Assembly (NCBI GenBank): GCA_026708565.1
Contig: JAPOUR010000039.1
Coordinates: forward strand, 1-36,572
Origin: Candidatus Dadabacteria bacterium
GTDB taxonomy: Bacteria > Desulfobacterota_D > UBA1144 > Nemesobacterales > Mycalebacteriaceae
Direction: 5' to 3'
Length of the DNA stretch: 36,572 nt
Shown: positions 1-36,572 of the stretch, piece after piece
Layout of the letters: every line of letters begins with the position of its first letter
Position numbering within the stretch: the stretch's first letter is position 1
Notes under the pieces: generated by a model
Told to the model about the DNA's origin: nothing
Databases searched by the model: none
What the model saw: the letters and a program-made list of their open reading frames with translations, nothing else
Position numbers and translations under genes: made by a program

Positions 1-844
1 TTGCTATGGTTGAATTCCCTACCGAATTTGCCTGAAACCCTATGCCAATTCCCCGATATTCGGCGGCTCTGGAATCAACGCCCACCGCTATACTTGAAAC
101 TCCAACGCTGCGGGCATGCCACCCTAAGGCAATAGCGCCGCGCGCATTGGCGAAAGCGCTTTGTCCGGCGGCGAATGCATTGTTTCTGGCACCCGCCTTA
201 TATCCTATGGCAATTGCCGCCTCTCCAATGGCATTTGTTTCTCTGCCAATGGCTGTTGCGCCCTGACCGCCAGCGCCGCCGGTGGCGTATGAGCCGGAGC
301 CAATGGCTGTTGCGCTCCCTGCATCCGCATGCGCTCCCCGCCCGAACGCGCTGGCGTCAGTGCCTGTGGCATTAGCATGTGCGCCAACGGCCACTGAGTT
401 CATCCCTGAGGCTGATGACTGTACCCCTATGGAGAGTGCGTTTATTGCGCTACCCGCAGCTTTGTATCCCATAGCGATTGCCTGGATTGCCGTAGCATTT
501 GCTTCAGAGCCAAAAGCCAACGCTCCCCTCGCATTGGCGTTTGCGACGCGGCCTATCGCCAGAGCAGACTCTGCGCCCGCACGGGAAGAAGAGCCCACGG
601 CGATTGCCGCCGTGCCTCCGACTGCGGACGCTGCTCTCCCAATGGCAATTCCTTCAATGACGGTTGCTCTGGCGACCGACCCCATTGAAGTAGCATAGTC
701 TCCGGTGGATCTGGAACCTGCGCCGATGGCGATAGCGCGCGTCCCCGAAGCGATGGCTCCGGTTCCAAGTGGTATCCGTGTTTGCGCCTGCACAACGGCG
801 GATACAAGGAAAACCGCCGCGAATGCGGCAATAAGTTTTTTCAT
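1..844 (-). CDS. Trimeric autotransporter (YadA-like head) adhesin, 5' part
   Basis: The reading frame is open from an ATG at 844 to the window edge, so the C-terminal part, including any membrane anchor, is missing. The first 20 residues form a signal peptide (MKKLIAAFAAVFLVSAVVQA, likely cut after AQA). From about residue 25 the chain is a run of degenerate 14-residue repeats of the kind AxAxGxxAxAxGxxS, for example AIAIGAGSRSTGDYATSMG and AVAVGAHANATG. This is the left-handed beta-roll head repeat (Hep_Hag/YadA head) of trimeric autotransporter adhesins, which sit on the outer membrane and bind surfaces or host and matrix molecules. A GGAGG lies 15 nt before the ATG (860-864), rather far. 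No ESPR-type extended signal peptide is seen. Family assignment is firm; the ligand and total length are unknown. Confidence 0.85.
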   Translation of the reverse strand, partial: MKKLIAAFAAVFLVSAVVQAQTRIPLGTGAIASGTRAIAIGAGSRSTGDYATSMGSVARATVIEGIAIGRAASAVGGTAAIAVGSSSRAGAESALAIGRVANANARGALAFGSEANATAIQAIAMGYKAAGSAINALSIGVQSSASGMNSVAVGAHANATGTDASAFGRGAHADAGSATAIGSGSYATGGAGGQGATAIGRETNAIGEAAIAIGYKAGARNNAFAAGQSAFANARGAIALGWHARSVGVSSIAVGVDSRAAEYRGIGIGFQANSVGNSTIA

Positions 845-981
845 AACAGTAGTTCCCAACCTCCGTTATGCAAATTCCAACCACGGCGCATTGCGCCCGG
901 TCAGATTTCGTATGCCCGTAAGTGTGGGGGTAAAACCCCTTTAAGTCAAGTTTACGGACACCGGCAGGTGTGCGCCGCCCG
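845..981. other. Intergenic region between hom and the adhesin gene
   Basis: Both flanking genes are on the minus strand, so this holds the end of the hom transcript and the upstream region of the adhesin. A TTGACT (minus strand, about 944-949) could be a -35 box, but no matching -10 is found at 16-18 nt. No convincing terminator is visible. Confidence 0.4.
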
Positions 982-2306: not shown

Positions 2307-4850
2307 TCAGCGAAAATTAAACCCCTTTGCCTCCGCCCCGATTTTGACGGTTTGCCCCGCGCCGAATTTGCCCTCAAGCAGCAGTTTTGACAGCGGGTCT
2401 TCAAGTTCCCTCCGGATGACGCGCTTTAGCGGCCTCGCGCCGAATTCCGGGTCGTATCCCAGTTCGGCAAGTTTTGCCTTCGCCTTGTCGGTGATTTCAA
2501 GCCGGAGGTCTTTTTCTGCGAGCCGCGCGCGCAAGTCCTCAATTCTTATGTCCACAATTTGTTTGATTTCCTCCGGCGAGAGCGGTTTGAAAATTATGGT
2601 TTCGTCAAGCCGGTTCAGAAACTCCGGGCGGAAGGCGTCTTTGAGAGCCGCCGAGACAAGTTCGCGCATCTTTTCCCCGTCTCCCGCGTTTTCCTGAATC
2701 AGGCGGCTTCCGAGGTTTGAGGTCATTATTATCACGCAGTTGCGGAAATTGACCGTTCTGCCCTGTCCGTCCGTCAGGCGGCCGTCCTCAAGGATTTGGA
2801 GCAGAATGTTGAAAACATCGGTGTGCGCTTTTTCAATCTCATCAAGCAGAATGACGGAGTAGGGGCGGCGGCGGACGGCTTCGGTGAGCTGGCCGCCCTC
2901 GTCGTAGCCCACATATCCGGGCGGCGCGCCGATGAGGCGCGAAACGGAGTGTTTTTCCATGTATTCGCTCATGTCTATGCGGACGAGGTTGTTTTCATCG
3001 TCAAACATAAACCCGGCAAGGGCGCGGGCGAGTTCGGTTTTGCCGACCCCCGTCGGCCCCAGAAATACCAGAGAGCCAATCGGCCTTGCAGGGTCCGCAA
3101 GCCCGGCGCGGGACCTTCTGACGGTGTTTGAAACCTCCCGCACCGCCTCCTCCTGCCCGACCACTCTGCGCGACAGGTTCTGCTCCATTCCCAGAAGTTT
3201 TTCCGTCTCGCCCTCCATAAGTTTTGAGACGGGAACTCCCGTCCACTTTGACACGACCGCCGCAATATCCGCCGCGCCCACCTCTTCTTTGAGGGAGGGG
3301 GTGTTTTTGTCCGCCATGTCTTCAAGGGTTTTTTCCAGTTCGGGAAGTTTGCCGTAAAGGATTTCGGACGCCGCCGAAAGGTCTCCCTCTCTCTGCGCTT
3401 TTTCCGCCCGTGTTCGCGCCGCGTCTATCTCGCGTTTGATGTTTTTTGTTTGCGCCGCCCGTTCCTTCTCCCTCTCCCACGCGGCGGTTATGCCGGAAAG
3501 ATGCTCTTTCAAGTCGGCGATTTTTTTGTCAATTTCCCCGACACCCTTTCCGCCGGGCTCTTTCGCCACGCTTTCGCGCTCCATCTCAAGTTGCATTACC
3601 CTGCGCCTTGCCTCGTCAACCTCGGCGGGCATGGAGTCAATCTCCATCTTGATTTTTGCCGCCGCCTCGTCCACAAGGTCAACCGCTTTGTCGGGAAGAA
3701 ATCTTCCCGTTATGTATCTGTCGGACAGCCGCGCCGCCGCCGTGAGCGCCTCGTCCCTTATCCTGACGCCGTGATGCGCCTCGTATTTTTCCGCAAGTCC
3801 GCGCAGTATGGAAACCGTGTCTTCAACGGAGGGCTCGCCCACGTATATCTGCTGAAACCGCCTTTCAAAAGCGGCGTCTTTTTCAATGTTTGCGCGGAAC
3901 TCGTCAAGCGTTGTCGCGCCGATGCAGCGGAGTTCCCCTCTGGCAAGGGCGGGCTTGAGCATGTTTGAAGCGTCCACCGCCCCGTCCGCGCCGCCCGCCC
4001 CGACAACCGTGTGAATTTCATCTATAAAGAGGACGATTTCCCTGCCCGCCCCGGCGACTTCGGAGAGAACCGCTTTCAGACGCTCCTCAAACTGCCCCCG
4101 GTATTTTGCTCCGGCCACCAGAGCGCCCATGTCCAGCGCTATCAGGGTTTTGTTTTCAAGGCCTTCGGGAACGTCCCCGTCAACGATTCTCTGGGCGAGG
4201 CCCTCAACGATTGCGGTTTTGCCGACCCCCGGCTCGCCTATCAGAACGGGGTTGTTTTTCGTGCGCCGGAGCAACACCTGCACCACGCGCCGTATTTCAT
4301 CATCCCTTCCGATCACGGGGTCAATTTTCCCCTCACGCGCCATTGCCGTGAGGTCTGCGCCGTATTTGGCGAGCGCCTGAAACGTGTCTTCGGGGGATTC
4401 GCCCGTTACCTTCCTGCCGCCCGTTAATTCGCGGGTGGCTTTTTCAACCGATTCCGTGTCAACCCCCGCGCGTTCAAACTCCGCCTTCAAGCCGCCGGAC
4501 GCCTCGCGGACGGCTCCGGAGAGCAGGTGTTCGGCGCTTATGTATTCGTCTCCGCGCTCTTGCGCCAATTTCGCAGCCGCCGCGAGCGCGGCTCTTAATT
4601 CGGCGCTTGCATAGCGGTCGCCTGAGCCTTCAACCACGGGGAGTTTGTCAATTTCCCTCTCCGCTGCGGCGGTGATTTCCTTTGCGTCCGCGCCGATTTT
4701 TGAGAGGATTTCAAGCGGTATTCCGTCTTCGGACAGAAGCGCGGCGACCAGATGGGGCAGGTCAATCGCCTGATTCCCTCTGTTCTCGGCGATTTCCCCC
4801 GCCCGCGAGACCGCCTCGCGCGCCTTGATGGTGAGATTATCAGGTTTCAT
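2307..4850 (-). CDS. clpB: ATP-dependent disaggregase ClpB
   Basis: ClpB is the hexameric AAA+ chaperone that extracts and refolds aggregated proteins with DnaK. With the start at 4850 the chain is 847 aa, close to the usual 850-870. It has the N-terminal Clp repeat domain (about 1-145) and NBD1 with GEPGVGKT at about 205-212. A Lys/Glu-rich coiled-coil middle domain (about 390-510) separates ClpB from ClpA and ClpC. NBD2 carries GPTGVGKT and the ClpB sensor region. The frame stays open 60 nt further up, but ATG 4850 is preferred: it has GGAG about 9 nt upstream and the residues after it ([13 protein letters not shown]) are the normal ClpB N-terminus. It is divergent from the ligase gene and followed by hom. 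Confidence 0.98.
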
Positions 4851-17008: not shown

Positions 17009-18169
17009 ATGGGTAGCCGATACATTGAAGGTGTCAACACAGACCGTATTCGCTGGGCGCTTGAGGATGTCAACACATCTCCCGAAGCGTTCGGGGAGAC
17101 GGCGGGCATTAAGGATTTTGCCGAAAAACTGGCGACCGGCCGCTGGACTTACAATCAGATAAGAAATGTTGCCGACCGGCTGGGCTACGGTGTGCTTTTC
17201 TTTATGGAGAGCGGGTTGCCGGAAGCGAAGAAGGTTCACACCGCCCACTACCGGACGCTTGCCAATCAGCGAGTACCCTTTGACCACAAACTTGCAAAAC
17301 TTGTCAAACAGGCCGAGAGGCATCGCGCTGTTTACATTGAAACTCTGGAGGAGTTGCGGGAGGAAGAGCCGCCTTTTCAACCGCCGGTTCTGCGCGGCGG
17401 TCTGGCGGACAAAGCCGCCGCCGTCCGAAAGTGGCTGAAACTTTCCGCCGCCGAAAATTACGAATTTGCGGATTACAGGAAGCGGTTGAGTGAAAAAAAC
17501 ATTTTGATACTTCAAGGCATGGGCTACAAGGGGAAATGGCGGGTTGAGGATGACAAAATTCACGGTCTTTCCATCTGCTACAAAAACACCCCCGTTATCT
17601 TTGTGGCTCAGGGCGGCAAGCAGCGCAGAACCTTCACATTGTTTCACGAATTGGCGCACTTGCTGTTGCACAGGAAGGACAAAATTGACAATGCCGACAC
17701 CATATACGACAAGCGTGACCGGCAGGAGATAGAAGCCAACAGGTTTGCCGGTTTGTGTCTGTTGCCGGATGAGTTGCTGAACGGCGTTGATGTTCCCGGT
17801 GATTTTGAACTGTTTAACGGAAGATTTGGCGGTCTGGCGAGGAAGTTGGGTATTAGTGTGGAGGTTGTTGTCAGGCGTTTGGCGGATACAAAGCGGATAA
17901 GCAACAAGGACTATGAAAGTTATGTTCAGTGGCGGGACGAAAATCGTGAAGGAGCGCCGAAACAAACGATGGGGACCAGGGAATACCGCCACCGCGAGCC
18001 GTTGCACATTTTCGGCGACCGTTATGTTCGCGCCATATTAAGCGGGTTGGAAGCGAAAATAATCACTCTTAACAAGGCAAGCAATTACTTGGACGGGCTT
18101 AAGATAACGGACATTAGAAAACTGGAAGATTATTGTTTGGAATTCCGTCCTGCCGTTTTGTTCAGGTGA
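17009..18169 (+). CDS. XRE-like/ImmA-IrrE family zinc metallopeptidase
   Basis: This 386-aa protein has a degenerate helix-turn-helix-like N-terminus (about 30-70, KLATGRWTYNQIRNVADRLG), a helical linker and an ImmA/IrrE peptidase domain. The zinc motif FHELAH gives HELAH at 213-217, with the third ligand Glu at about 242 in RQEIEANRFAG. ImmA-type peptidases cut repressors, for example in ICEBs1, and IrrE cuts DdrO. In toxin-antitoxin-like pairs this fusion often precedes a PIN (DUF4411) gene, which is missing here because hsdR follows. A TTGACA at 16961-16966 may be a -35, but its best -10 is 19-20 nt away. The start ATG at 17009 has no Shine-Dalgarno. Confidence 0.88.
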   Translation: MGSRYIEGVNTDRIRWALEDVNTSPEAFGETAGIKDFAEKLATGRWTYNQIRNVADRLGYGVLFFMESGLPEAKKVHTAHYRTLANQRVPFDHKLAKLVKQAERHRAVYIETLEELREEEPPFQPPVLRGGLADKAAAVRKWLKLSAAENYEFADYRKRLSEKNILILQGMGYKGKWRVEDDKIHGLSICYKNTPVIFVAQGGKQRRTFTLFHELAHLLLHRKDKIDNADTIYDKRDRQEIEANRFAGLCLLPDELLNGVDVPGDFELFNGRFGGLARKLGISVEVVVRRLADTKRISNKDYESYVQWRDENREGAPKQTMGTREYRHREPLHIFGDRYVRAILSGLEAKIITLNKASNYLDGLKITDIRKLEDYCLEFRPAVLFR

Positions 18170-18266: not shown

Positions 18267-20588
18267 ATGGACAAGAAGGGTCTCAGCGAAACCGACATAC
18301 GCACGAGATACATCACGCCCGCCATACAGGGGGCGGGGTGGGACTTACACACGCAGATACGCGAGGAATATATTCTTGCTCCGGGGCGGGTCGCTTTGGA
18401 CAAAGACAAGGAGAGGGGCAAGTCCAAGCAAGCCGACTATGTTCTTTTCCTCAAACCCAACATACCGCTTGCGGTTGTTGAGGCAAAAAACAACAGACAC
18501 GAACCGGCGGACGGCATTCAACAGGCGCTTGAGTATGCCGGACTTCTGGATGTGCCGTTTGCCTTTTCTTCAAACGGCGATTCGTTTGTGTTTCATGACA
18601 ACACCGCCCCCGGCGATATTGAAACCAATCTGAATATGGATGATTTTCCATCACCGGAGACTCTGCTTGAAAAATATAAGAAGTGGCGAAATCTGGATAA
18701 GACGGCGGGGGATATATTTTTTCAGGACTACCATGAAAGCGACAAAGAACCGCGCTATTATCAGCAAGCCGTTGTTAACCGCGCCGTTCATAGAATCGCC
18801 ACTGGTGGCGACCGTGTTTTGCTTGTGCTGGCGACCGGAACGGGAAAAACACAGGTTGCCTTTCAAATTATCTGGCGTTTGTGGAAAGCCGAGGTCAAGA
18901 AGCGCATCCTGTTTTTGACTGACCGCAATATTCTTGCCGACCAGCCGCAAAATGGTGATTTCCGCCCGTTTGGCAGGGCAATGACGCGCTTTGTTCGCGG
19001 CAAAACAGACCCGTCTTATGAAATCTATCTGGGGTTGTATCAATCGCTGACCGGCCCCCAAGAATCCGACAAGGCGTATCAGGACTTTTCCCCGAACTTC
19101 TTTGACTTGATTGTTGTGGATGAGTGCCACAGGGGAAGCGCCGATGAGGATTCGGCATGGCGCGAGATACTGGAATACTTTTCGGAAGCCGCGCAAATCG
19201 GCATGACCGCTACGCCGAAAGAAACAAGATACACATCCAACATTGACTACTTCGGCGAGCCGATTTACACATACTCGCTGAGGCAGGGCATAGAAGACGG
19301 CTTTCTGGCCCCTTACAAGGTGGTGAGGTCTCACATTGACAAAGATGTTGAGGGATACCGCCCTGAGCCCGGCAAATTGGATGATCAGGGAAATCCCGTT
19401 GAAAGCCGCATTTATCACAGGCCGGAATTTGACCGCGACATAGTGATAGATGAGCGCACCAAGATTGTCGCCAAGCGAATAAGCGATTATCTGCGCGACT
19501 CCGACCGCATGCACAAAACCATCGTTTTCTGTGTGGACAAGGAACACGCCGGACGGATGCGGCAGGCTCTTGTCAATGAAAACGCCGACAAGTGCAAAGA
19601 AAACCCCCGCTATGTCGTGCGCATTGTCAGCGGCGACACGGAAGGCGAGGCGCAACTGGACAATTTCCGCGACCCTGAATCCCGCTATCCCGTTATCGCG
19701 GTTACTTCGCGCCTTTTATCAACCGGCGTTGATGTGCCAACCTGCCGCCTGATTGCGCTTGACAGGGAAGTCGGTTCAATGACGGAGTTCAAGCAAATCA
19801 TAGGGCGCGGCACACGCCTTCATCCCGACAGCGACAAGCGATTTTTTACTGTGATGGATTTCCGGCTGGTTACAAACCACTTTGCCGACCCGGATTTTGA
19901 CGGCTTGCCGGTTCAGGTATACGAGGATTTAGGGGATACACCGGACCCGGAACCGGCCTTTTCAACACCGGAGGAGATGCCTACGGAGAACAATCTGGAT
20001 GAGGAAGATACGCCTGAGCCGCGCAATAAGATCTATGTAAGCGGTGTTGAGGTCACCATACTTGGCGAGCAGGTGCAGTATTTGGATGGAAGCGGCAACC
20101 TCATTACCAAAGATTTGCGCGTCTATATGGGCGAGCGGGTGCGTTCCCGCTACGCCACTTTGAGCGATTTTCTGACCCGGTGGGAAAGCGCCGACCGGCG
20201 GCGGGTGGTGCTGGATGAATTGAGAAACGCCGGATTATCTTTTGAAATCCTTTCAGAAGCGGTGGGCGACAGCAGTTTAGACCCGTTTGATTTGGTTTGC
20301 CATGTCGCTTTTGAGCGTCCCACACAAACCCGCAAACAACGGGCGGAACGCGCCCGCCAAAGTGATGTTTTCACGCGCTACGGCGGACAGGCGAGAGAAG
20401 TGCTATCCGCATTGCTTGATAAGTATGAGGACGGAGTGGAGTCCTTTGACGAGATTGATTTGCTGAATGTCAGCCCCTTGAGCGATATGGGGACGCCTTT
20501 GGAAATCGTTGGTTTGTTCGGTAGCGATGATGACTACCGCCGGACAGTGCGGGAATTGCATAACACTTTGTATCAAGAGTTGGTATAA
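18267..20588 (+). CDS. hsdR: Type I restriction endonuclease subunit R (EcoEI-like)
   Basis: HsdR is the translocating and cutting subunit of type I restriction enzymes. The 773-aa chain has an N-terminal PD-(D/E)xK nuclease (Asp 57, and Glu 72 and Lys 74 in VVEAKN). A superfamily 2 helicase follows with ATGTGKT (189-195), DECH (285-288), GMTATP (312-317) and QIIGRGTRL near 470. A C-terminal EcoEI-type domain binds the methylase core. It ends in the bases TAA that are also part of a TATAAT box for the next gene. The operon order is hsdR, two unknown genes, hsdM, hsdS. All catalytic motifs are intact, so the enzyme looks active. Confidence 0.95.
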   Translation: MDKKGLSETDIRTRYITPAIQGAGWDLHTQIREEYILAPGRVALDKDKERGKSKQADYVLFLKPNIPLAVVEAKNNRHEPADGIQQALEYAGLLDVPFAFSSNGDSFVFHDNTAPGDIETNLNMDDFPSPETLLEKYKKWRNLDKTAGDIFFQDYHESDKEPRYYQQAVVNRAVHRIATGGDRVLLVLATGTGKTQVAFQIIWRLWKAEVKKRILFLTDRNILADQPQNGDFRPFGRAMTRFVRGKTDPSYEIYLGLYQSLTGPQESDKAYQDFSPNFFDLIVVDECHRGSADEDSAWREILEYFSEAAQIGMTATPKETRYTSNIDYFGEPIYTYSLRQGIEDGFLAPYKVVRSHIDKDVEGYRPEPGKLDDQGNPVESRIYHRPEFDRDIVIDERTKIVAKRISDYLRDSDRMHKTIVFCVDKEHAGRMRQALVNENADKCKENPRYVVRIVSGDTEGEAQLDNFRDPESRYPVIAVTSRLLSTGVDVPTCRLIALDREVGSMTEFKQIIGRGTRLHPDSDKRFFTVMDFRLVTNHFADPDFDGLPVQVYEDLGDTPDPEPAFSTPEEMPTENNLDEEDTPEPRNKIYVSGVEVTILGEQVQYLDGSGNLITKDLRVYMGERVRSRYATLSDFLTRWESADRRRVVLDELRNAGLSFEILSEAVGDSSLDPFDLVCHVAFERPTQTRKQRAERARQSDVFTRYGGQAREVLSALLDKYEDGVESFDEIDLLNVSPLSDMGTPLEIVGLFGSDDDYRRTVRELHNTLYQELV

Positions 20589-20589
20589 T
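20581..20589 (+). promoter_or_regulatory. Extended -10 promoter overlapping the hsdR stop
   Basis: TGG-TATAAT (20581-20589, with TG at 20582-20583) is a perfect extended -10 element whose TATAAT contains the hsdR stop codon TAA. It lies 39 nt before the ATG of the next gene, which has a strong GAGGAGG ribosome site. The -35 region is poor. Confidence 0.55.
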
Positions 20590-20628
20590 GAGCGAACTAA
20601 CAACTAATGTCTTGAGGAGGACGAAAAC

Positions 20629-21507
20629 ATGAGCGACCTGAAGCAATACACCTTCTATTTCTACCGCCCTGAGCCTGTGGCTGAGGGTGAATTACTGACA
20701 AGTTTTCTTGACGGTTCTATGAGTCAGCAACCTACTGATGCCCAGATATCCGGTGACTATTATATTCAAATAGAGGGATTGGAGGCGGTTAATTCCCCGA
20801 GAAACTCTATGATACGTGGAGTTGTAAAGAAGTTTAGAAGACAAGACATACCCAGTATTGGAAAACTTAATGAAATTAAAGAACGTTCCATAGAGTTGCA
20901 AAGAGAAGAAGCCATTGTGGAGAAAACGCACTTTCTTTATAATTCCTCTATGAATGTGTTGCTCTACCAGAGCAATTTTTATGGAACAAATGTCAAATAT
21001 TTCGGCGAGTACCTTTCACATTTAATCGGTAGAACAGTTTCGTTCAATCCTGTAATAGTTCCTGATGCTTACAAGAAGATTCTGGATAGCAATCTGAAGT
21101 TGAAGAGGTTTATTGTAAAGATTGCTCGCCCCACAAATATATCAATGTTGAAGAATCCCAGTAACAGTATTGTATGGGACGAGTCTATGAAATTATTGGA
21201 TGAATCAACGGCAAGCAATCTTACCTTGACAATAGCAGGAGACAAGAGAGAGGGGGTTTATATTAGTGAAACTTTCAAAGAGAAGATAATCAGGATGATG
21301 CCGCTATTTGGTCAGAAAGACGGGGGAAAAGTAACACTTATTGATAAGGAAGGGGCAGAACAAGTTATTGATCTCATAGCAGACAGGCTTTCCGTGAAGT
21401 TTGATGTTGAGATGGATGGAAAGTATCCCGTCTCTGATACCTTGTTTAAGTCAATGGCGCAAAGAATGTTGGAAAAGAGTGCGGAGTTAAAGCGAATCTT
21501 CGGATAG
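20629..21507 (+). CDS. Unknown 292-aa cytosolic protein inserted in the hsd operon
   Basis: I cannot name this gene with confidence. The 292-aa chain has no signal peptide, no membrane helix and no nucleotide-binding motif I recognise. The N-terminus (LKQYTFYFYRPEP) and the middle block (KTHFLYNSSMNVLLYQSN) recall uncharacterised families such as DUF6731 seen near mobile and defence genes; this is from memory and unchecked. GAGGAGG 8 nt before the ATG makes the start certain. Base composition is unlike hsdR: sampled 60-base lines are 32-42% GC. It is followed 6 nt later by a small membrane-protein gene, so the two probably work as a pair. A defence or immunity role is inferred from position only. 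Confidence 0.75.
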   Translation: MSDLKQYTFYFYRPEPVAEGELLTSFLDGSMSQQPTDAQISGDYYIQIEGLEAVNSPRNSMIRGVVKKFRRQDIPSIGKLNEIKERSIELQREEAIVEKTHFLYNSSMNVLLYQSNFYGTNVKYFGEYLSHLIGRTVSFNPVIVPDAYKKILDSNLKLKRFIVKIARPTNISMLKNPSNSIVWDESMKLLDESTASNLTLTIAGDKREGVYISETFKEKIIRMMPLFGQKDGGKVTLIDKEGAEQVIDLIADRLSVKFDVEMDGKYPVSDTLFKSMAQRMLEKSAELKRIFG

Positions 21508-21513
21508 CGACTA

Positions 21514-21945
21514 ATGAACTTCCGTATTGTTATTTTGTATGCAGTTGTTGCAATTCCGCCTTGGTTTTTAGATGAAATACCTGTCGGTAGTGGTGGTATG
21601 GGAGATTTCCTTCTTGCCTTTATGGAATTGTCAGGAACTCTTTTAGGATTTGTTATAGGAGGTTTGGCTATATTTACCACATTTGGCGGAACTTTAATCA
21701 ATAATATGAAAAAGACAGGCCATTACAGATGTCTTGTTAACAACTTTTACGTGACTGGGGCTTCCCTCTTCTTATGTATGTTGTTCTCAATTGTTTGTTA
21801 CTTTATTCCTCGTTTGTTTATTTGGAAAGTCGGTTGCTCTATTTTGTTGATGTCTCTTGTTTCCTTGGTGATGACAGGACGGCGGTTTTATACTGTCATG
21901 AGGTTTATTGGTAAGCCCGAGGGCAACCCCAATGTTTTAGACTAA
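21514..21945 (+). CDS. Unknown small membrane protein, about four helices
   Basis: This 143-aa protein has about four hydrophobic helices: residues 5-19, 30-56, 76-98 and 103-122. The second contains LSGTLLGFVIGGLAIFTTF with small residues that could pack into an oligomer. It ends in a short polar tail. The ATG lies 6 nt after the stop of the preceding gene without a good Shine-Dalgarno, so translational coupling is likely. It is AT-rich like its partner. Small multi-helix membrane proteins next to a cytosolic partner are known as defence effectors (for example KwaA of Kiwa, with the gene order reversed), but no homology is claimed. Confidence 0.75.
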   Translation: MNFRIVILYAVVAIPPWFLDEIPVGSGGMGDFLLAFMELSGTLLGFVIGGLAIFTTFGGTLINNMKKTGHYRCLVNNFYVTGASLFLCMLFSIVCYFIPRLFIWKVGCSILLMSLVSLVMTGRRFYTVMRFIGKPEGNPNVLD

Positions 21946-21977
21946 CCGAGAGGCAATCTTGTTAAGAAGGGCAACCC

Positions 21978-23402
21978 ATGACCGTCTCCACAACCGTTAA
22001 AACCATTCAAGACATTATGCACAAAGACGCCGGCGTTGATGGCGATGCTCAGCGTATTTCTCAGTTGACTTGGATGTTGTTCCTGAAAATCATAGATGAT
22101 CAGGATGATGAACTGGCTCTGATGGTTCGGGGCTACAAGCCGCCAATTCCCGCCGCATTGCGCTGGCGCAATTGGGCGAAAGACCCTGAGGGAATTACCG
22201 GCGATAGATTGTTGGATTTTGTTAACGGCGATCTCTTTCCAAAACTCAAAAACTTGGCAGTAAGCAAGGATGAACGCCGCCGTATTGTCCGGGAAGTGTT
22301 TGCGGACGCTAACAACTACATGAAATCCGGTCAATTAATGCGGCAGGTAATCAACAAGATACAGACCATTGACTTCAACAAACTTGCCGAGAGGCAGCAT
22401 TTCGGCGAGATATACGAGAAAATACTGAACGACCTGCAAAGCGCGGGTAATGCGGGAGAGTTTTACACGCCCCGCGCCCTCACCAGTTTTATGGCGGCGC
22501 GAACAGACCCCAAGCCGGATGAGATAGTTTTAGACCCCGCTTGCGGCACGGGCGGCTTCCTCACTTGCGCCATTCGGCACATGCGCGATAAACACATAAA
22601 AGCGCCGAAGCAGGAAAGCGAAATGCAAAGCAATCTGAGCGGGTGCGAACTCAAACACCTGCCCTATGTTCTTTGCGTTACCAATATGCTGTTGCACAAC
22701 ATAGCGTCCCCTTCCTTTGTCAAACATGATGACATGCTCGCGCGTCCGCTTACGAGTTACACAAACTCCGACCGCGTTGATGTTGTGCTGACTAATCCGC
22801 CGTTTGGCGGCGCGGTAGCCCCCAATATTGAGCGTATTTTTTCAAAGGAGTTTAGGACAAAAGAAACCGCCGATTTGTTTTTGGTTTTGATTATGCGTCT
22901 GCTCAAGCCCGGCGGGCGTTGCGCCATTGTGTTGCCGGATGGCACACTGTTCGGCGAGGGCGTTAAAACCCGCATTAAAAAGCAGTTGCTTGAAACCTGC
23001 AATCTTCACACGATTGTCCGCCTGCCGAATAGTGTTTTTCGTCCCTACGCTTCAATCGGGACTAATCTGCTGTTTTTCACAAAGGGCGAAGAGACGCGCC
23101 ATATTTGGTATTACGAGCATAAAGTCCCCGAAGGGCAAGCGGCGTATTCCAAGACAAAGCCGATTAGGTTGGAGCATTTGCAGCCGTGCGCCGATTGGTG
23201 GGACAAGCGGCGCGAAAATGAAAACGCTTGGAAGGTGGACATAAAGGAAATAAGAGAGCGCAATTACAATTTGGACATCAAAAACCCGCATGGGCGGAAA
23301 ACAGAGAGGCAACACACCAGTAAACAATTGTTGAGCATGTTGCATCGTTCATTTGCGGAAAGCAATGAATTATTGAACCGACTCAAAGAGGAGTTGAAAT
23401 GA
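21978..23402 (+). CDS. hsdM: Type I DNA methyltransferase subunit M
   Basis: HsdM is the N6-adenine methyltransferase of the type I system, modifying both strands of the target with HsdS. The 474-aa chain has the helical N-terminal domain (1-150) and the GNAGEFYTPRAL block (158-168). The SAM motif I is DPACGTGGF (186-194) and the catalytic motif IV is NPPF (273-276). AAGG lies about 9 nt before the ATG. The stop overlaps the hsdS start by four bases. Base composition returns to that of hsdR, unlike the two genes in between. Confidence 0.97.
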   Translation: MTVSTTVKTIQDIMHKDAGVDGDAQRISQLTWMLFLKIIDDQDDELALMVRGYKPPIPAALRWRNWAKDPEGITGDRLLDFVNGDLFPKLKNLAVSKDERRRIVREVFADANNYMKSGQLMRQVINKIQTIDFNKLAERQHFGEIYEKILNDLQSAGNAGEFYTPRALTSFMAARTDPKPDEIVLDPACGTGGFLTCAIRHMRDKHIKAPKQESEMQSNLSGCELKHLPYVLCVTNMLLHNIASPSFVKHDDMLARPLTSYTNSDRVDVVLTNPPFGGAVAPNIERIFSKEFRTKETADLFLVLIMRLLKPGGRCAIVLPDGTLFGEGVKTRIKKQLLETCNLHTIVRLPNSVFRPYASIGTNLLFFTKGEETRHIWYYEHKVPEGQAAYSKTKPIRLEHLQPCADWWDKRRENENAWKVDIKEIRERNYNLDIKNPHGRKTERQHTSKQLLSMLHRSFAESNELLNRLKEELK

Positions 23403-24694
23403 TGACAGCATGGGAAAAATTTCAAATCGGGGAATTTGTCTTTGAGAGAGAAGGCAAATACAAACCTCATCATGAGGCTATAGTGGGTCTGCAAAGAATT
23501 GATAAGATTGATTTTGACGGCAATTTTCATTTGTCTGGCAAACCAAGCAAGACAGGTATGATCTTGATTAAACCTCGAGACTTGGTGATATCAGGTATTA
23601 ATGTTTCCAAAGGGGCACTAGGTGTTTATCAGGGAGATGAAGATGTTTCAGCGACCATACACTACTCTTCTTATACTTTTGATGAGAAGAAGATTGATGT
23701 TGACTATTTTAGGTATTTTGTCAAATCTGAATCGTTTCTTGATTTGCTTGAAAAGCAAGTTGGAGGGGGGATTAAGACCGAGATAAAACCTCGGCATTTC
23801 TTGTCGCTTACAATATCTCTCCCGAATAAGTCAGAGCAAGAAGAGATAGTTAAGAAATTTCGGAGGATAGAAAAAGAGTACGCGAAGTTGCAAATTGCAA
23901 TTGAGCAACAGAGAGCATTAGTATCAAATCTTCGCCAGATGATTCTGGATATGGCGGTGCGCGGTAAGTTAGTGCCGCAAAATCCGAAAAGTGAACCGGC
24001 GGCGGTGTTGTTGGAGAAAATCAAGGCGGAGCGGCAAAAGCAGGAGAGAGCGGGCAAGGTCTCCGCTAATCCGTTGCCGTCTCTCACCGATGAAGAAAAA
24101 TCGTTTACCATTCCTGTGGGTTGGGAGTGGGCGCGGCTTGGTGAAGTATTGATTTATGATGCGGGAATCAATGTAACTCCGGGACAACTGAAAGGTGAGA
24201 AGTGGCTTTTGGAGCTGGAAGATATTGAAAAAAATACCAGCCGCCTTTTGCAGAAAATCAAAGTAAAGGAACGCTCGGCAAAAAGTCATAAATCAGAATT
24301 TATGAAAGGCGATGTTTTATACGGAAAACTACGCCCCTATCTGAATAAAGCGCTTGTTGCAAGCGAGGATGGCTACTCTACGACTGAAATCGTCTCTCTC
24401 AGGCCTTATTGCGATATTGTGCCGGAGTACGCTGTTGTCTGCTTGAAGAGAAGCGATTTCCACGCTTATGTAGAACAGTCCGGCCAAGGAACAAAAATGC
24501 CGAGACTGAGAAAAGTGGACGCTATCAAAGCCAGTTTTCCCCTTCCTCCGCTTGCCGAGCAAAAGCGCATTGTTACGAAAGTGAACAAGTTAATGGCATT
24601 GTGCGACAAACTGGAGGCACAGATTACTGACAACCAGAACAATACCAATGAGTTAGTGAAGGCAATTTCACGGGAAACTTTCCCCAATGCTTAA
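23399..24694 (+). CDS. hsdS: Type I specificity subunit S
   Basis: HsdS reads the split target with two target-recognition domains (TRDs). The 431-aa chain has TRD1 (about 1-150), the central helical spacer with the conserved LRQMILDMAVRGKLVPQ (about 180-196), TRD2 (about 235-385) starting IPVGWEWARLGEV, and a C-terminal helical repeat ending LPPLAEQKRIV...KLEAQI. Two full TRDs mean an asymmetric bipartite target, which cannot be read from sequence. TRD1 is visibly more AT-rich than TRD2, as if exchanged. It starts in an ATGA overlap with hsdM. Confidence 0.93.
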   Translation: MMTAWEKFQIGEFVFEREGKYKPHHEAIVGLQRIDKIDFDGNFHLSGKPSKTGMILIKPRDLVISGINVSKGALGVYQGDEDVSATIHYSSYTFDEKKIDVDYFRYFVKSESFLDLLEKQVGGGIKTEIKPRHFLSLTISLPNKSEQEEIVKKFRRIEKEYAKLQIAIEQQRALVSNLRQMILDMAVRGKLVPQNPKSEPAAVLLEKIKAERQKQERAGKVSANPLPSLTDEEKSFTIPVGWEWARLGEVLIYDAGINVTPGQLKGEKWLLELEDIEKNTSRLLQKIKVKERSAKSHKSEFMKGDVLYGKLRPYLNKALVASEDGYSTTEIVSLRPYCDIVPEYAVVCLKRSDFHAYVEQSGQGTKMPRLRKVDAIKASFPLPPLAEQKRIVTKVNKLMALCDKLEAQITDNQNNTNELVKAISRETFPNA

Positions 24695-25964: not shown

Positions 25965-26183
25965 CGGCTGATTGTAAGTTATCTTTCGGCTAATTGCAAG
26001 TTTATTTGCGTCTAATTGCAAGTATAACCCTCGGCTGATTGTAAGTTTATAGTCCGGCTGATTTTCATTTAGTATGCGTCTAATTGCAAGTTTGTTTGCG
26101 TCTAATTGTAAGTTCAGTATCCGGCTAATTGCAAGTTACACCTGCGGCTAATTGCAAGTTTCAGGGGCGGCTGATTGAAAGTT
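25965..26183 (-). repeat. Ten-copy array of a 16-bp motif at 22-23 bp spacing
   Basis: The 16-bp core reads CGGCTAATTGCAAGTT on the plus strand, with variants CGTCTAATTG and CGGCTGATTG. Copies start at 25965, 25987, 26009, 26032, 26055, 26077, 26099, 26122, 26145 and 26168, always 22 or 23 bp apart, about two turns of the helix. The 6-7 bp spacers vary freely, so the core is what is kept. Copy 5 is degenerate and copy 10 lies in the last codons of the SMUG2-like gene. On the minus strand every unit holds TTGCAA (like a -35) and TGCAAT or TACAAT (like a -10), with 17-18 nt from one unit's -35 to the next unit's -10. Confidence 0.92.
25971..25999 (-). promoter_or_regulatory. Promoter of the DUF4143 ATPase within the array, likely leaderless
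   Basis: Minus strand TTGCAA (25994-25999, unit 2) and TACAAT (25971-25976, unit 1) are 17 nt apart. The -10 ends 8 nt before the ATG at 25962, which predicts a leaderless mRNA. Confidence 0.5.
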
Positions 26184-26877
26184 TCTCAATAAACTCGCGG
26201 AGATGCCGCGCCGTGTGGCGGCTTTGGTATTGGACAACATAGCGCGGGTGGGGCAGGGGAATGATCTCGCCGAAATAGCCGCGCTCCGCATTCAGGGCTT
26301 GCAGGTATTCGCTGTTTTTGCCCATGCCGAGACACCATGCGACATCGCGCAGTATGGGCATGCTCATATAGCGCGACATCGCCTCATCTATGAGGGGCTG
26401 CACGGCGCGGGTGAGGGCTTTGGTCTCATAGTAGTTGCAGTTGACCCAGTTGCCGCGCGGGTTCTTTTTGACCAGCCCAAGCGGCAGCGGCGAGTTGATA
26501 TAAAAGTCGCCGTAAAACGCGCTTGCGCCGCCCCACGCCCGCACCACCTCATATATGAAAACCGATGAGGGCTCGCGGGTCGTAATGCCGCGCGAGTCTA
26601 TCCCCAGAGGGTCCGCAAGGCGGTGGCTGTCTGTGAACGGCACTCCGGTCAGCCCCGCTCCCAGCCGCCCCGGATTGATGCCTAAAATCAAATGCCGGGG
26701 GCGGGTGTCGGCGTAATACTTGCGGTAGAAATCCGCGCTTATGGGAAGCGCCTCGCCGCGCGCAAAAGGGTTCATCATCCTGTTGCCGGAAGGCAGCCGC
26801 GCCGCCCGGTCGCCCAGCGTTGCCAGATGCTCGTTTAGGGCGATTGCATGGTCTGCAAATGTGGTTTTTGTTTTCAA
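26161..26877 (-). CDS. SMUG2-like uracil-DNA glycosylase family protein (DUF4918 type)
   Basis: This 238-aa protein is of the uracil-DNA glycosylase superfamily. LILGINPGRLGAGLTGVPFTD is the motif-1 region (64-84), with G-I-N-P-G as in SMUG-type enzymes, and PLPHPRYV near the C-terminus is motif 2 with the His. It should remove uracil or related damaged bases from DNA. The start appears to be TTG at 26877, since no ATG lies in frame between the tRNA-Ser and residue 34; TTFADHAIALNEHL is the normal N-terminus. No Shine-Dalgarno is present. The stop overlaps the last unit of the repeat array. Confidence 0.82.
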   Translation of the reverse strand: MKTKTTFADHAIALNEHLATLGDRAARLPSGNRMMNPFARGEALPISADFYRKYYADTRPRHLILGINPGRLGAGLTGVPFTDSHRLADPLGIDSRGITTREPSSVFIYEVVRAWGGASAFYGDFYINSPLPLGLVKKNPRGNWVNCNYYETKALTRAVQPLIDEAMSRYMSMPILRDVAWCLGMGKNSEYLQALNAERGYFGEIIPLPHPRYVVQYQSRHTARHLREFIEKLSISRP

Positions 26878-34929: not shown

Positions 34930-35583
34930 CTATTTGAGAATCGCTCCCGTTTTTTCACTCCACAGCAGCAGGTCCATCTCGTCCATGTCAAACCCGTGGC
35001 ACTTTGCGTAGCGCCGCAGCGCGCCCTCAATCTCAAGATACCGCTTTCCGCGCGCGGGCGGCGCGGGGTCGTCAACCACTCCCATTTCAAACAGGCAGTT
35101 CATTATGTGCTTGTCTAAAATGGCGTATCCGCCCAGTCCGATGTTTCTGAGAAAATGGCTCGCCTCCTTGAAGCCGATGCCTTTGATGTCCGGGGTTTCC
35201 GCAAAAAACGCCCGCCTTTTGTCCGGGTCGTCAAACGACATTATGAGCCGTCTCATCTCCATACCGTGAGTGTCTCTGAGGTAGTTTCTGGTGTGAAGAA
35301 GGTATCTCGCCCTCTCGTTCGGAAACCTGTGCGCGCCGTTTTTTTTCAGCAGACGGGAGAACTGTTTTTCCGACCTTGCCGACATGATTACGGGGCGGAC
35401 GGCGGCTATGGATTTGAGCCCCATCCTTGCGCTTGCCCCGGCGGTGAAGATGCAGAACGCGAGTTCCTCAAAGATTTCCGCATCGTCGGCATGTTTGATA
35501 ACGCGGCGGAATCCGGTGAGTTTCTTTCTTATTTCGCTCCGTTTTTCGGAGAGCGATTTTTTCAGGGTTTTTACGGTCAGCAC
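34930..35583 (-). CDS. ogg: Ogg2-type 8-oxoguanine DNA glycosylase/AP lyase
   Basis: This is a 217-aa HhH-GPD glycosylase of the Ogg2 group (archaea, Thermotoga and scattered bacteria), which removes 8-oxoguanine and nicks the strand. The hairpin PDIKGIGFKEASHFLRNIG holds the catalytic Lys 139, and YAILDKHI holds Asp 157; the 18-residue distance matches characterised members. The whole-length N-terminus (EKRSEIRKKLTGFRRVI) is normal. The start is GTG at 35583, only 8 nt from the T-run of a strong terminator, and no promoter or ribosome site is evident. How it is expressed is unclear; a slightly later start is possible. Confidence 0.87.
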   Translation of the reverse strand: MLTVKTLKKSLSEKRSEIRKKLTGFRRVIKHADDAEIFEELAFCIFTAGASARMGLKSIAAVRPVIMSARSEKQFSRLLKKNGAHRFPNERARYLLHTRNYLRDTHGMEMRRLIMSFDDPDKRRAFFAETPDIKGIGFKEASHFLRNIGLGGYAILDKHIMNCLFEMGVVDDPAPPARGKRYLEIEGALRRYAKCHGFDMDEMDLLLWSEKTGAILK

Positions 35584-35591
35584 GGTCGGGC

Positions 35592-35627
35592 AAAAAAAAC
35601 CGGCGGGCTTAAGCCGCCGGTTTTTTC
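35592..35627 (-). terminator. Strong bidirectional terminator
   Basis: CCGGCGG (35600-35606) and CCGCCGG (35614-35620) form a 7-bp stem extended by flanking A/T runs (eight A on one side, six T on the other). On the minus strand it ends the AT-hook gene just after its stop at 35638. The symmetric runs could stop plus-strand transcription too. Confidence 0.9.
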
Positions 35628-35637
35628 TCCGGAAAGG

Positions 35638-36572
35638 TTATGACTTTTTCGGTCTGCCGGGTCCGCGCCGGACGCCGGAGCCCTTGGGTCTGCCGGGTCC
35701 GCGTTTAACGCCCGAACCCTTCGGCCTGCCCGGCCCGCGCTTGACGGCGGTTGCCGCTTTGACGCCAGAGCCTTTGGGTCTGCCGGGTCCGCGTTTGACG
35801 CCAGAGCCCTTCGGCCTACCGGGCCCGCGCTTGACGGCGGTTGCCACTTTGACGCCAGAGCCTTTGGGTCTGCCGGGTCCGCGTTTAACGCCGGAGCCCT
35901 TCGGCCTACCGGGTCCGCGTTTGACGGCGGTTGCCGCTTTAACGCCTGAGCCCTTCGGCCTGCCCGGCCCGCGTTTAACACCTGAGCCTTTCGGTCTACC
36001 CGGCCCGCGTTTTACCGGAGCGGCGGTTTCCTCGGCGACCATTCTGGGTCTGCCGGGTCCGCGTTTAACGCCGGAGCCTTTGGGTCTTCCCGGCCCGCGC
36101 TTAACACCTGAGCCCTTCGGCCTGCCCGGCCCGCGTTTTGCCGGAGCGGCGGTTTCCTCGGCGACCATTCTGGGTCTTCCGGGTCCGCGTTTAACACCAG
36201 AGCCTTTGGGTCTTCCGGGTCCGCGCTTAACGCCTGAGCCCTTCGGCCTGCCCGGCCCGCGTTTTGCCGGAGCGGCGGTTTCCTCGGCGACCATTCTGGG
36301 TCTTCCGGGTCCGCGTTTAACACCAGAGCCTTTGGGTCTTCCGGGTCCGCGCTTAACGCCTGAGCCCTTCGGCCTGCCCGGCCCGCGTTTTGCCGGAGCG
36401 GCGGTTTCCTCGGCGACCATTCTGGGTCTTCCGGGTCCGCGTTTAACACCAGAGCCTTTGGGTCTTCCGGGTCCGCGCTTGACACCTGAGCCTTTGGGTC
36501 TTCCCGGCCCGCGCTTGACACCTGAGCCTTTCGGCCTGCCGGGCCCGCGCCTTCCCGTGGCGGGGGCGTAGG
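35638..36572 (-). CDS. AT-hook-like repeat protein, 3' part
   Basis: The frame is open from the window edge to TAA at 35638; the N-terminus is missing. The visible part of about 310 residues is nearly all repeats of KRGPGRPKGSGV, with 22 copies of the core RGPGRP. Two spacers occur: MVAEETAAPA (or APV) and KAATAV/KVATAV. The core is a variant of the AT-hook (R-G-R-P) that lies in the minor groove of AT-rich DNA, and the chain is extremely basic, so a nucleoid or chromatin-like DNA-binding role is likely. It ends RRGPGRPKKS. The minus strand is chosen over the also-open plus strand because of the terminator after the stop and the sensible product. Confidence 0.8.
   Translation of the reverse strand, partial: YAPATGRRGPGRPKGSGVKRGPGRPKGSGVKRGPGRPKGSGVKRGPGRPRMVAEETAAPAKRGPGRPKGSGVKRGPGRPKGSGVKRGPGRPRMVAEETAAPAKRGPGRPKGSGVKRGPGRPKGSGVKRGPGRPRMVAEETAAPAKRGPGRPKGSGVKRGPGRPKGSGVKRGPGRPRMVAEETAAPVKRGPGRPKGSGVKRGPGRPKGSGVKAATAVKRGPGRPKGSGVKRGPGRPKGSGVKVATAVKRGPGRPKGSGVKRGPGRPKGSGVKAATAVKRGPGRPKGSGVKRGPGRPKGSGVRRGPGRPKKS
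35661..36572 (-). repeat. Coding tandem repeats, 36-bp unit within 126-bp and 90-bp higher units
   Basis: The basic unit is 36 bp (12 codons). At the 5' side of the gene it is arranged in 126-bp units, seen by identical ATG positions at 36420, 36294, 36168 and 36042. Three 90-bp units of a second type follow nearer the stop. Neighbouring 126-bp copies are almost identical, so they are recent duplications. Confidence 0.9.

Follow-up and report, generated by a model that had tools for sequence, protein, structure and literature searches.

What protein does an array of AT-hook-like modules at the very end of a contig belong to? We analyzed a window of 36,572 bp, which is the entire length of contig C39 from a Candidatus Dadabacteria genome (1.57 Mb in 60 contigs). 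One end of the window is filled by such an array. Where a contig breaks off, an apparent "hook protein" may turn out to be part of a very different product, and it is this question of identity that we address here.

The array is a long and strongly basic stretch of a gene that is cut by the contig end. It lies in a minus-strand frame that stays open for 310 codons and runs past the last base of the contig. The visible fragment begins with YAPATGRRGPGRPKGSGVK and ends with RGPGRPKKS, followed by a TAA stop at positions 35638-35640. Upstream of the first hook, the visible frame contains no start codon. We count exactly 22 RGPGRP modules, in agreement with the original prediction of at least 22, and these are spaced 12 or 18 residues apart. 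The linkers that join them read KGSGVK, RMVAEETAAP(A/V)K, or KGSGVK(A/V)ATAVK. The 310 visible residues include 79 Gly, 50 Arg, 49 Pro, and 42 Lys; the pI is ~12, the net charge is approximately +84, and the chain is probably disordered. A pattern of two consecutive hooks matches 21 times in the window and not once in 60 related genomes, while its reversed control has no match anywhere. Thus, the array is far beyond what chance would produce. The same two-hook pattern was also sampled in one other small phylum (17 genomes) and in viral contigs. We consider that the visible residues probably represent a tail only, and that the gene is unlikely to encode a hook-only protein.

Table 1. Coordinates of the hook array, its repeat units, and the adjacent features within the window.
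Feature	Position	Strand	Evidence
Predicted C-terminal tail with 22 RGPGRP modules; gene cut by contig end	35638..36570	-	Frame, hooks, and homology to the G001 tail
Three 126-bp repeat copies (36045, 36171, 36297), 95-100% identical	36045..36422	-	Repeat comparison
More diverged 36-, 54-, and 90-bp units with (A/V)ATAVK linkers	35648..36009	-	Repeat and linker reading
Terminator-like hairpin and T run, between the array stop codon and ogg	35592..35628	-	z-scores of -4.4 and -4.8; counterpart in G001
8-oxoguanine DNA glycosylase (Ogg-HhH), syntenic downstream neighbor, outside the hook protein	34930..35583	-	PF22175, E 5.4e-44

A thiolase with a short hook tail occupies the matching place in a genus-mate. 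Only one other genome of the genus was returned, here called G001. At the place marked by carA, gatB, and the 8-oxoguanine glycosylase gene, it encodes, on the glycosylase strand, a 444-aa acetyl-CoA acetyltransferase. This protein matches PF00108 (E 1.7e-90) and PF02803 (E 7.7e-48), scores 473 bits against TIGR01930 (cut-off 240.55), and has acetyl-CoA acetyltransferases (PDB 4n44 and relatives) as its best solved relatives. Its last 47 residues (GTSAASTGRRGRPKGSGVKAKPGPKPGAKKRGPGRPKKRGRGRPRKS) form a tail with three hooks, read in one open frame with the enzyme. The core of the protein is slightly acidic and the tail strongly basic. The tails of the window and of G001 start alike (TGRRG..RPKGSGVK) and end alike (RGxGRPxKS, then a stop). 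Furthermore, G001 residues 401-442 align with the window array at 67% identity (unmasked tblastn, E 1.6e-5). The surroundings also correspond: the window glycosylase is 75% identical to its G001 orthologue, and the hairpin with its T run, which is absent from the list of a consensus terminator scanner, has a counterpart at the matching place in G001.

Gene order indicates where the rest of the gene should lie. Past the thiolase, the order in G001 is ddl, eamA, exbD, exbB, lysA, hemE, hemH, and hemG (names assigned by reading translations). The window genome has no match to a thiolase body of the G001 type at E <= 1e-60, and no good match to ddl. Its lysA sits on another contig, C51, which starts within eamA (residue 312 of 327) and then carries exbD, exbB, lysA, hemE, hemH, and hemG in the G001 order. 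Because the flanks on C39 and C51 follow the order seen in G001, the gap between them, ~2.5 kb in G001 coordinates, should hold ddl and the thiolase core. A contig-overlap search with the first 19 bases matched the window's own copy alone. The N-terminal domain that was expected upstream of the hooks is absent from the assembly, while synteny points to a thiolase core as its identity. From these flanks we infer an in-frame fusion of thiolase and array across the contig gap, and the array is very probably the C-terminal tail of that thiolase.

Both ends of the contig fall in repeat proteins. At the other end (2-859, minus strand) is a YadA-head repeat protein (PF05658, E 3.6e-24) that is also cut by the contig boundary, and whose product is likely a trimeric autotransporter adhesin. 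Elsewhere in the window, Type I restriction-modification genes (hsdR, hsdM, and hsdS) occupy positions 18267-24694 on the plus strand. Two genes separate hsdR from hsdM: one encodes a DUF6731 protein (20629-21507), the other a protein of 143 aa that has no match in Pfam (21514-21945). An ImmA/IrrE-type protein (17009-18169) lies just before the restriction-modification genes. Approximately nine degenerate 23-bp repeats (CGGCTAATTGCAAGTTT...) are found at 25965-26185, flanked by a DUF4143 ATPase gene and a gene of the uracil-DNA-glycosylase superfamily.

The hook array is internally repetitive, with periods of 36, 90, and 126 bp. Its most recently duplicated part is the block of three 126-bp copies, in which the adjacent copies at 36171 and 36297 are 100% identical. 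The near-identity of these copies was correctly anticipated from the sequence. The longest exact direct repeat spans 248 bp; given this length and the identical copies, the hook count of 22 is uncertain, since a short-read assembly may have collapsed or stretched the array. A variable copy number between strains had also been proposed. The variability stands (three hooks versus 22), although what we observe is a difference between two species. The tail probably lengthened as units of 36, 54, and 126 bp were duplicated.

Hook tails on thiolases are confined to one genus among the genomes read, with three hooks in one species and 22 in the other. Thiolases themselves are widespread, with a match at E <= 1e-60 in 56 of 61 genomes. 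We read the C-terminal ends of the 30 best loci, together with those of the 80 named loci for which a single frame was recovered. Among these ends, G001 alone carries a hook tail; all others, from order-mates and from the closest named genomes alike, stop within ~10 residues of the core. Most open frames of the remaining relatives in the thiolase search leave little room for a long tail. Profile and protein searches with the tail in 40 relatives returned the window itself only. A contig scan of genomes in which the tail protein served as query yielded no confirmed relative, an outcome that low-complexity masking probably explains. Within the genus, the patterns RGRPKxxG and RGxGRP[KR] recovered the thiolase tails and, beyond these, matches in numbers close to those of the reversed-pattern control; no further hook tail was present among the pattern loci examined in frame (one orientation, part of the matches). 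The tail has no relative among solved structures and no match among PHROG families. A literature search for AT-hook, thiolase, and bacteria, which covered part of the literature, returned no such fusion.

The module itself is not restricted to the genus, as RGPGRPK recurs in viral contigs. Proteins with tandem RGPGRP modules are encoded on L188 (near 1440-1500) and L191 (near 4150-4300), and contain RGPGRPPGSKNKRGPGRPKGSKNK and repeated KRGPGRPKK. Of the viral RGPGRP proteins, one is short and basic and one has acidic stretches.

RGPGRP is an AT-hook-like variant and not a classical RGRP hook. AT-hooks comprise a GRP core with basic flanks, of which the central RGR fits the minor groove (PMC11354804). 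The window modules, all of them RGPGRP, keep GRP and the basic flanks but have Pro where RGR has its first Arg. An RGR(P) core is thus present in none of the window modules and in two of the three G001 hooks. The Pfam AT_hook model (PF02178), which is short and gives a weak scan, had no match to the window tail at E <= 10 and scored 12.2 bits on the G001 tail, below its cut-off of 17.4.

Thiolases of the AtoB/PhaA type are usually tetramers. On balance, we favor a model in which the array is the C-terminal tail of such a thiolase and the multivalent tails of the tetramer tether the enzyme to the nucleoid. The core would fold into the usual tetramer, as expected from its family, and each subunit would bear a probably disordered tail with a charge of approximately +84. 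At 22 modules per chain, a tetramer would present ~88 modules, each a weak binder of the minor groove or of phosphates. Most likely, the tails would together bind the chromosome in a multivalent and largely sequence-tolerant way and so hold the enzyme at the nucleoid; tetramers may also link DNA segments. Judging from sequence, DNA or nucleoid binding is likely to be the main role of the tail. That the tail binds nucleic acids, that it tethers the enzyme, and that it influences metabolism or chromosome structure are all predictions; if the hooks work, the tail would let a thiolase sit on DNA or RNA. Against the favored model count the small number of tail-bearing genomes, only two, and the window modules, which lack the central RGR and fail to match the Pfam AT_hook model. 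We put forward only tentatively the broader proposal that a tail-bearing metabolic enzyme is now chromosome-bound and DNA-bridging, and couples acetyl-CoA metabolism to the nucleoid in one genus. With a short tail in one species and 22 modules in the other, such a thiolase would offer a natural experiment on how enzymes acquire a new location in the cell.

A different gene could in principle be encoded here, either on the opposite strand or as hooks alone. The plus strand holds a frame (35384-36571) that is open for 395 codons, but the chance that it is the real gene is negligible; it would overlap ogg. Across 17 comparable units, the minus frame has 749 pairwise base differences in same-residue codons and 43 in different-residue codons, against 611 and 115 in the plus frame; amino-acid changes thus account for 43/792 and 115/726 differences, respectively. 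Nine DNA spellings of the hook all encode RGPGRP. The residue sequence is kept in the minus frame while codons vary, and changes among the repeats are overwhelmingly silent. Because third codon positions coincide on both strands, the openness of the plus frame follows from the minus frame, and the silent-change counts favor the minus frame without proof. Repeat duplication can also make copies similar in the absence of selection, so that the codon argument carries less weight for the most recent copies. What settles the minus strand as coding is that, in G001, the corresponding frame runs on from a thiolase, and so the reading frame originally assigned to the hooks holds. A free-standing hook protein, H1-like or a xenogeneic silencer, would have its start beyond the contig end or at internal ATGs in the RMVAEETAAPAK linkers. 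The gene body is indeed missing from C39 and in-frame ATGs do occur within the array, the first at 36420, but we regard this alternative as very improbable: the visible frame has no start before the first hook, the G001 tail contains no internal Met, a matching thiolase tail sits at the same gene-order position in G001, and the assembly of the window genome lacks both body and ddl. The G001 gene and the flanking gene order place a thiolase where the original prediction had a hook-only protein. Every RMVAEETAAPAK linker contains an in-frame ATG (36420 and its repeats), with GGAAGA ~9 bases upstream in some copies, and internal starts at these ATGs may give hook-only products.

If the array is a thiolase tail, its target may still differ from the chromosome. 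It is possible, though unlikely, that the main partner of the tail is RNA, polyphosphate, or another polyanion, or that the tail promotes condensates. The very high positive charge, the Gly/Pro/Ser linkers, and the lack of a classical RGR core in the 22-hook tail would all suit such a role, and AT-hooks can bind RNA (PMC11354804); however, the RGRP cores in G001 point to DNA as the older target, and GRP with basic flanks is kept in 22 of 22 modules. Less probable again is a tail without a function of its own, in which a GC-rich repeat ending a thiolase gene expanded nearly neutrally and was tolerated. The restriction of the tail to one genus, the great difference in length between the two species, and the recent duplication evident from the identical 126-bp copies are each consistent with neutral expansion. 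Yet the older units show many silent differences and hardly any residue changes (the 749 versus 43 above), and both species retain recognizable hooks rather than random repeats. A DNA- or nucleoid-binding thiolase tail remains the interpretation that we prefer.

Bacterial DNA-binding tails usually occur on regulators or granule proteins. The enzyme core resembles bacterial acetyl-CoA acetyltransferases (TIGR01930; PDB 4n44), with both thiolase domains found in the G001 gene, while the related thiolases that we read end near the core and, unlike G001, have no hook tail. In Myxococcus xanthus, CarD combines a folded domain with an unstructured HMGA-like tail of four RGRP hooks (PMC4374960). The likeness is the arrangement, in which a folded bacterial domain precedes a basic hook tail that lacks structure. 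However, CarD regulates transcription and contains an acidic stretch, whereas here the tail would belong to a metabolic enzyme and has 22 RGPGRP-type modules. PhaM, PhaF, and AlgP bind DNA non-specifically and thereby tether PHB or polyphosphate granules to the nucleoid (PMC13052382); they likewise use a basic C-terminal region to attach metabolic machinery to DNA without sequence specificity. They differ in being granule proteins with histone-like tails, where here an enzyme bears hooks. Tethering of PHA granules was dropped as an explanation, as neither the window genome (G000) nor G001 has a match to PF07167 (PhaC), which is matched in 11 of the 26 genomes searched. With HMGA (PMC11354804), the tail shares a GRP core, basic flanks, and several hooks on a flexible chain, but HMGA lacks an enzyme domain and its hooks are three in number, of the PRGRP type, and the window module has Pro for the first Arg of RGR. 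We found no silencer-family domain (Pfam, NCBIfam) in the visible window tail or in the G001 protein, and the G001 counterpart is a thiolase; action in the manner of H1 or a xenogeneic silencer, as originally predicted, is thus not borne out. What the tailed thiolase would have in common with H-NS, MvaT, Lsr2, and Rok is the logic of an oligomerizing core with minor-groove contacts, although here the core is an enzyme and its many hooks, arranged in tandem, belong to another type.
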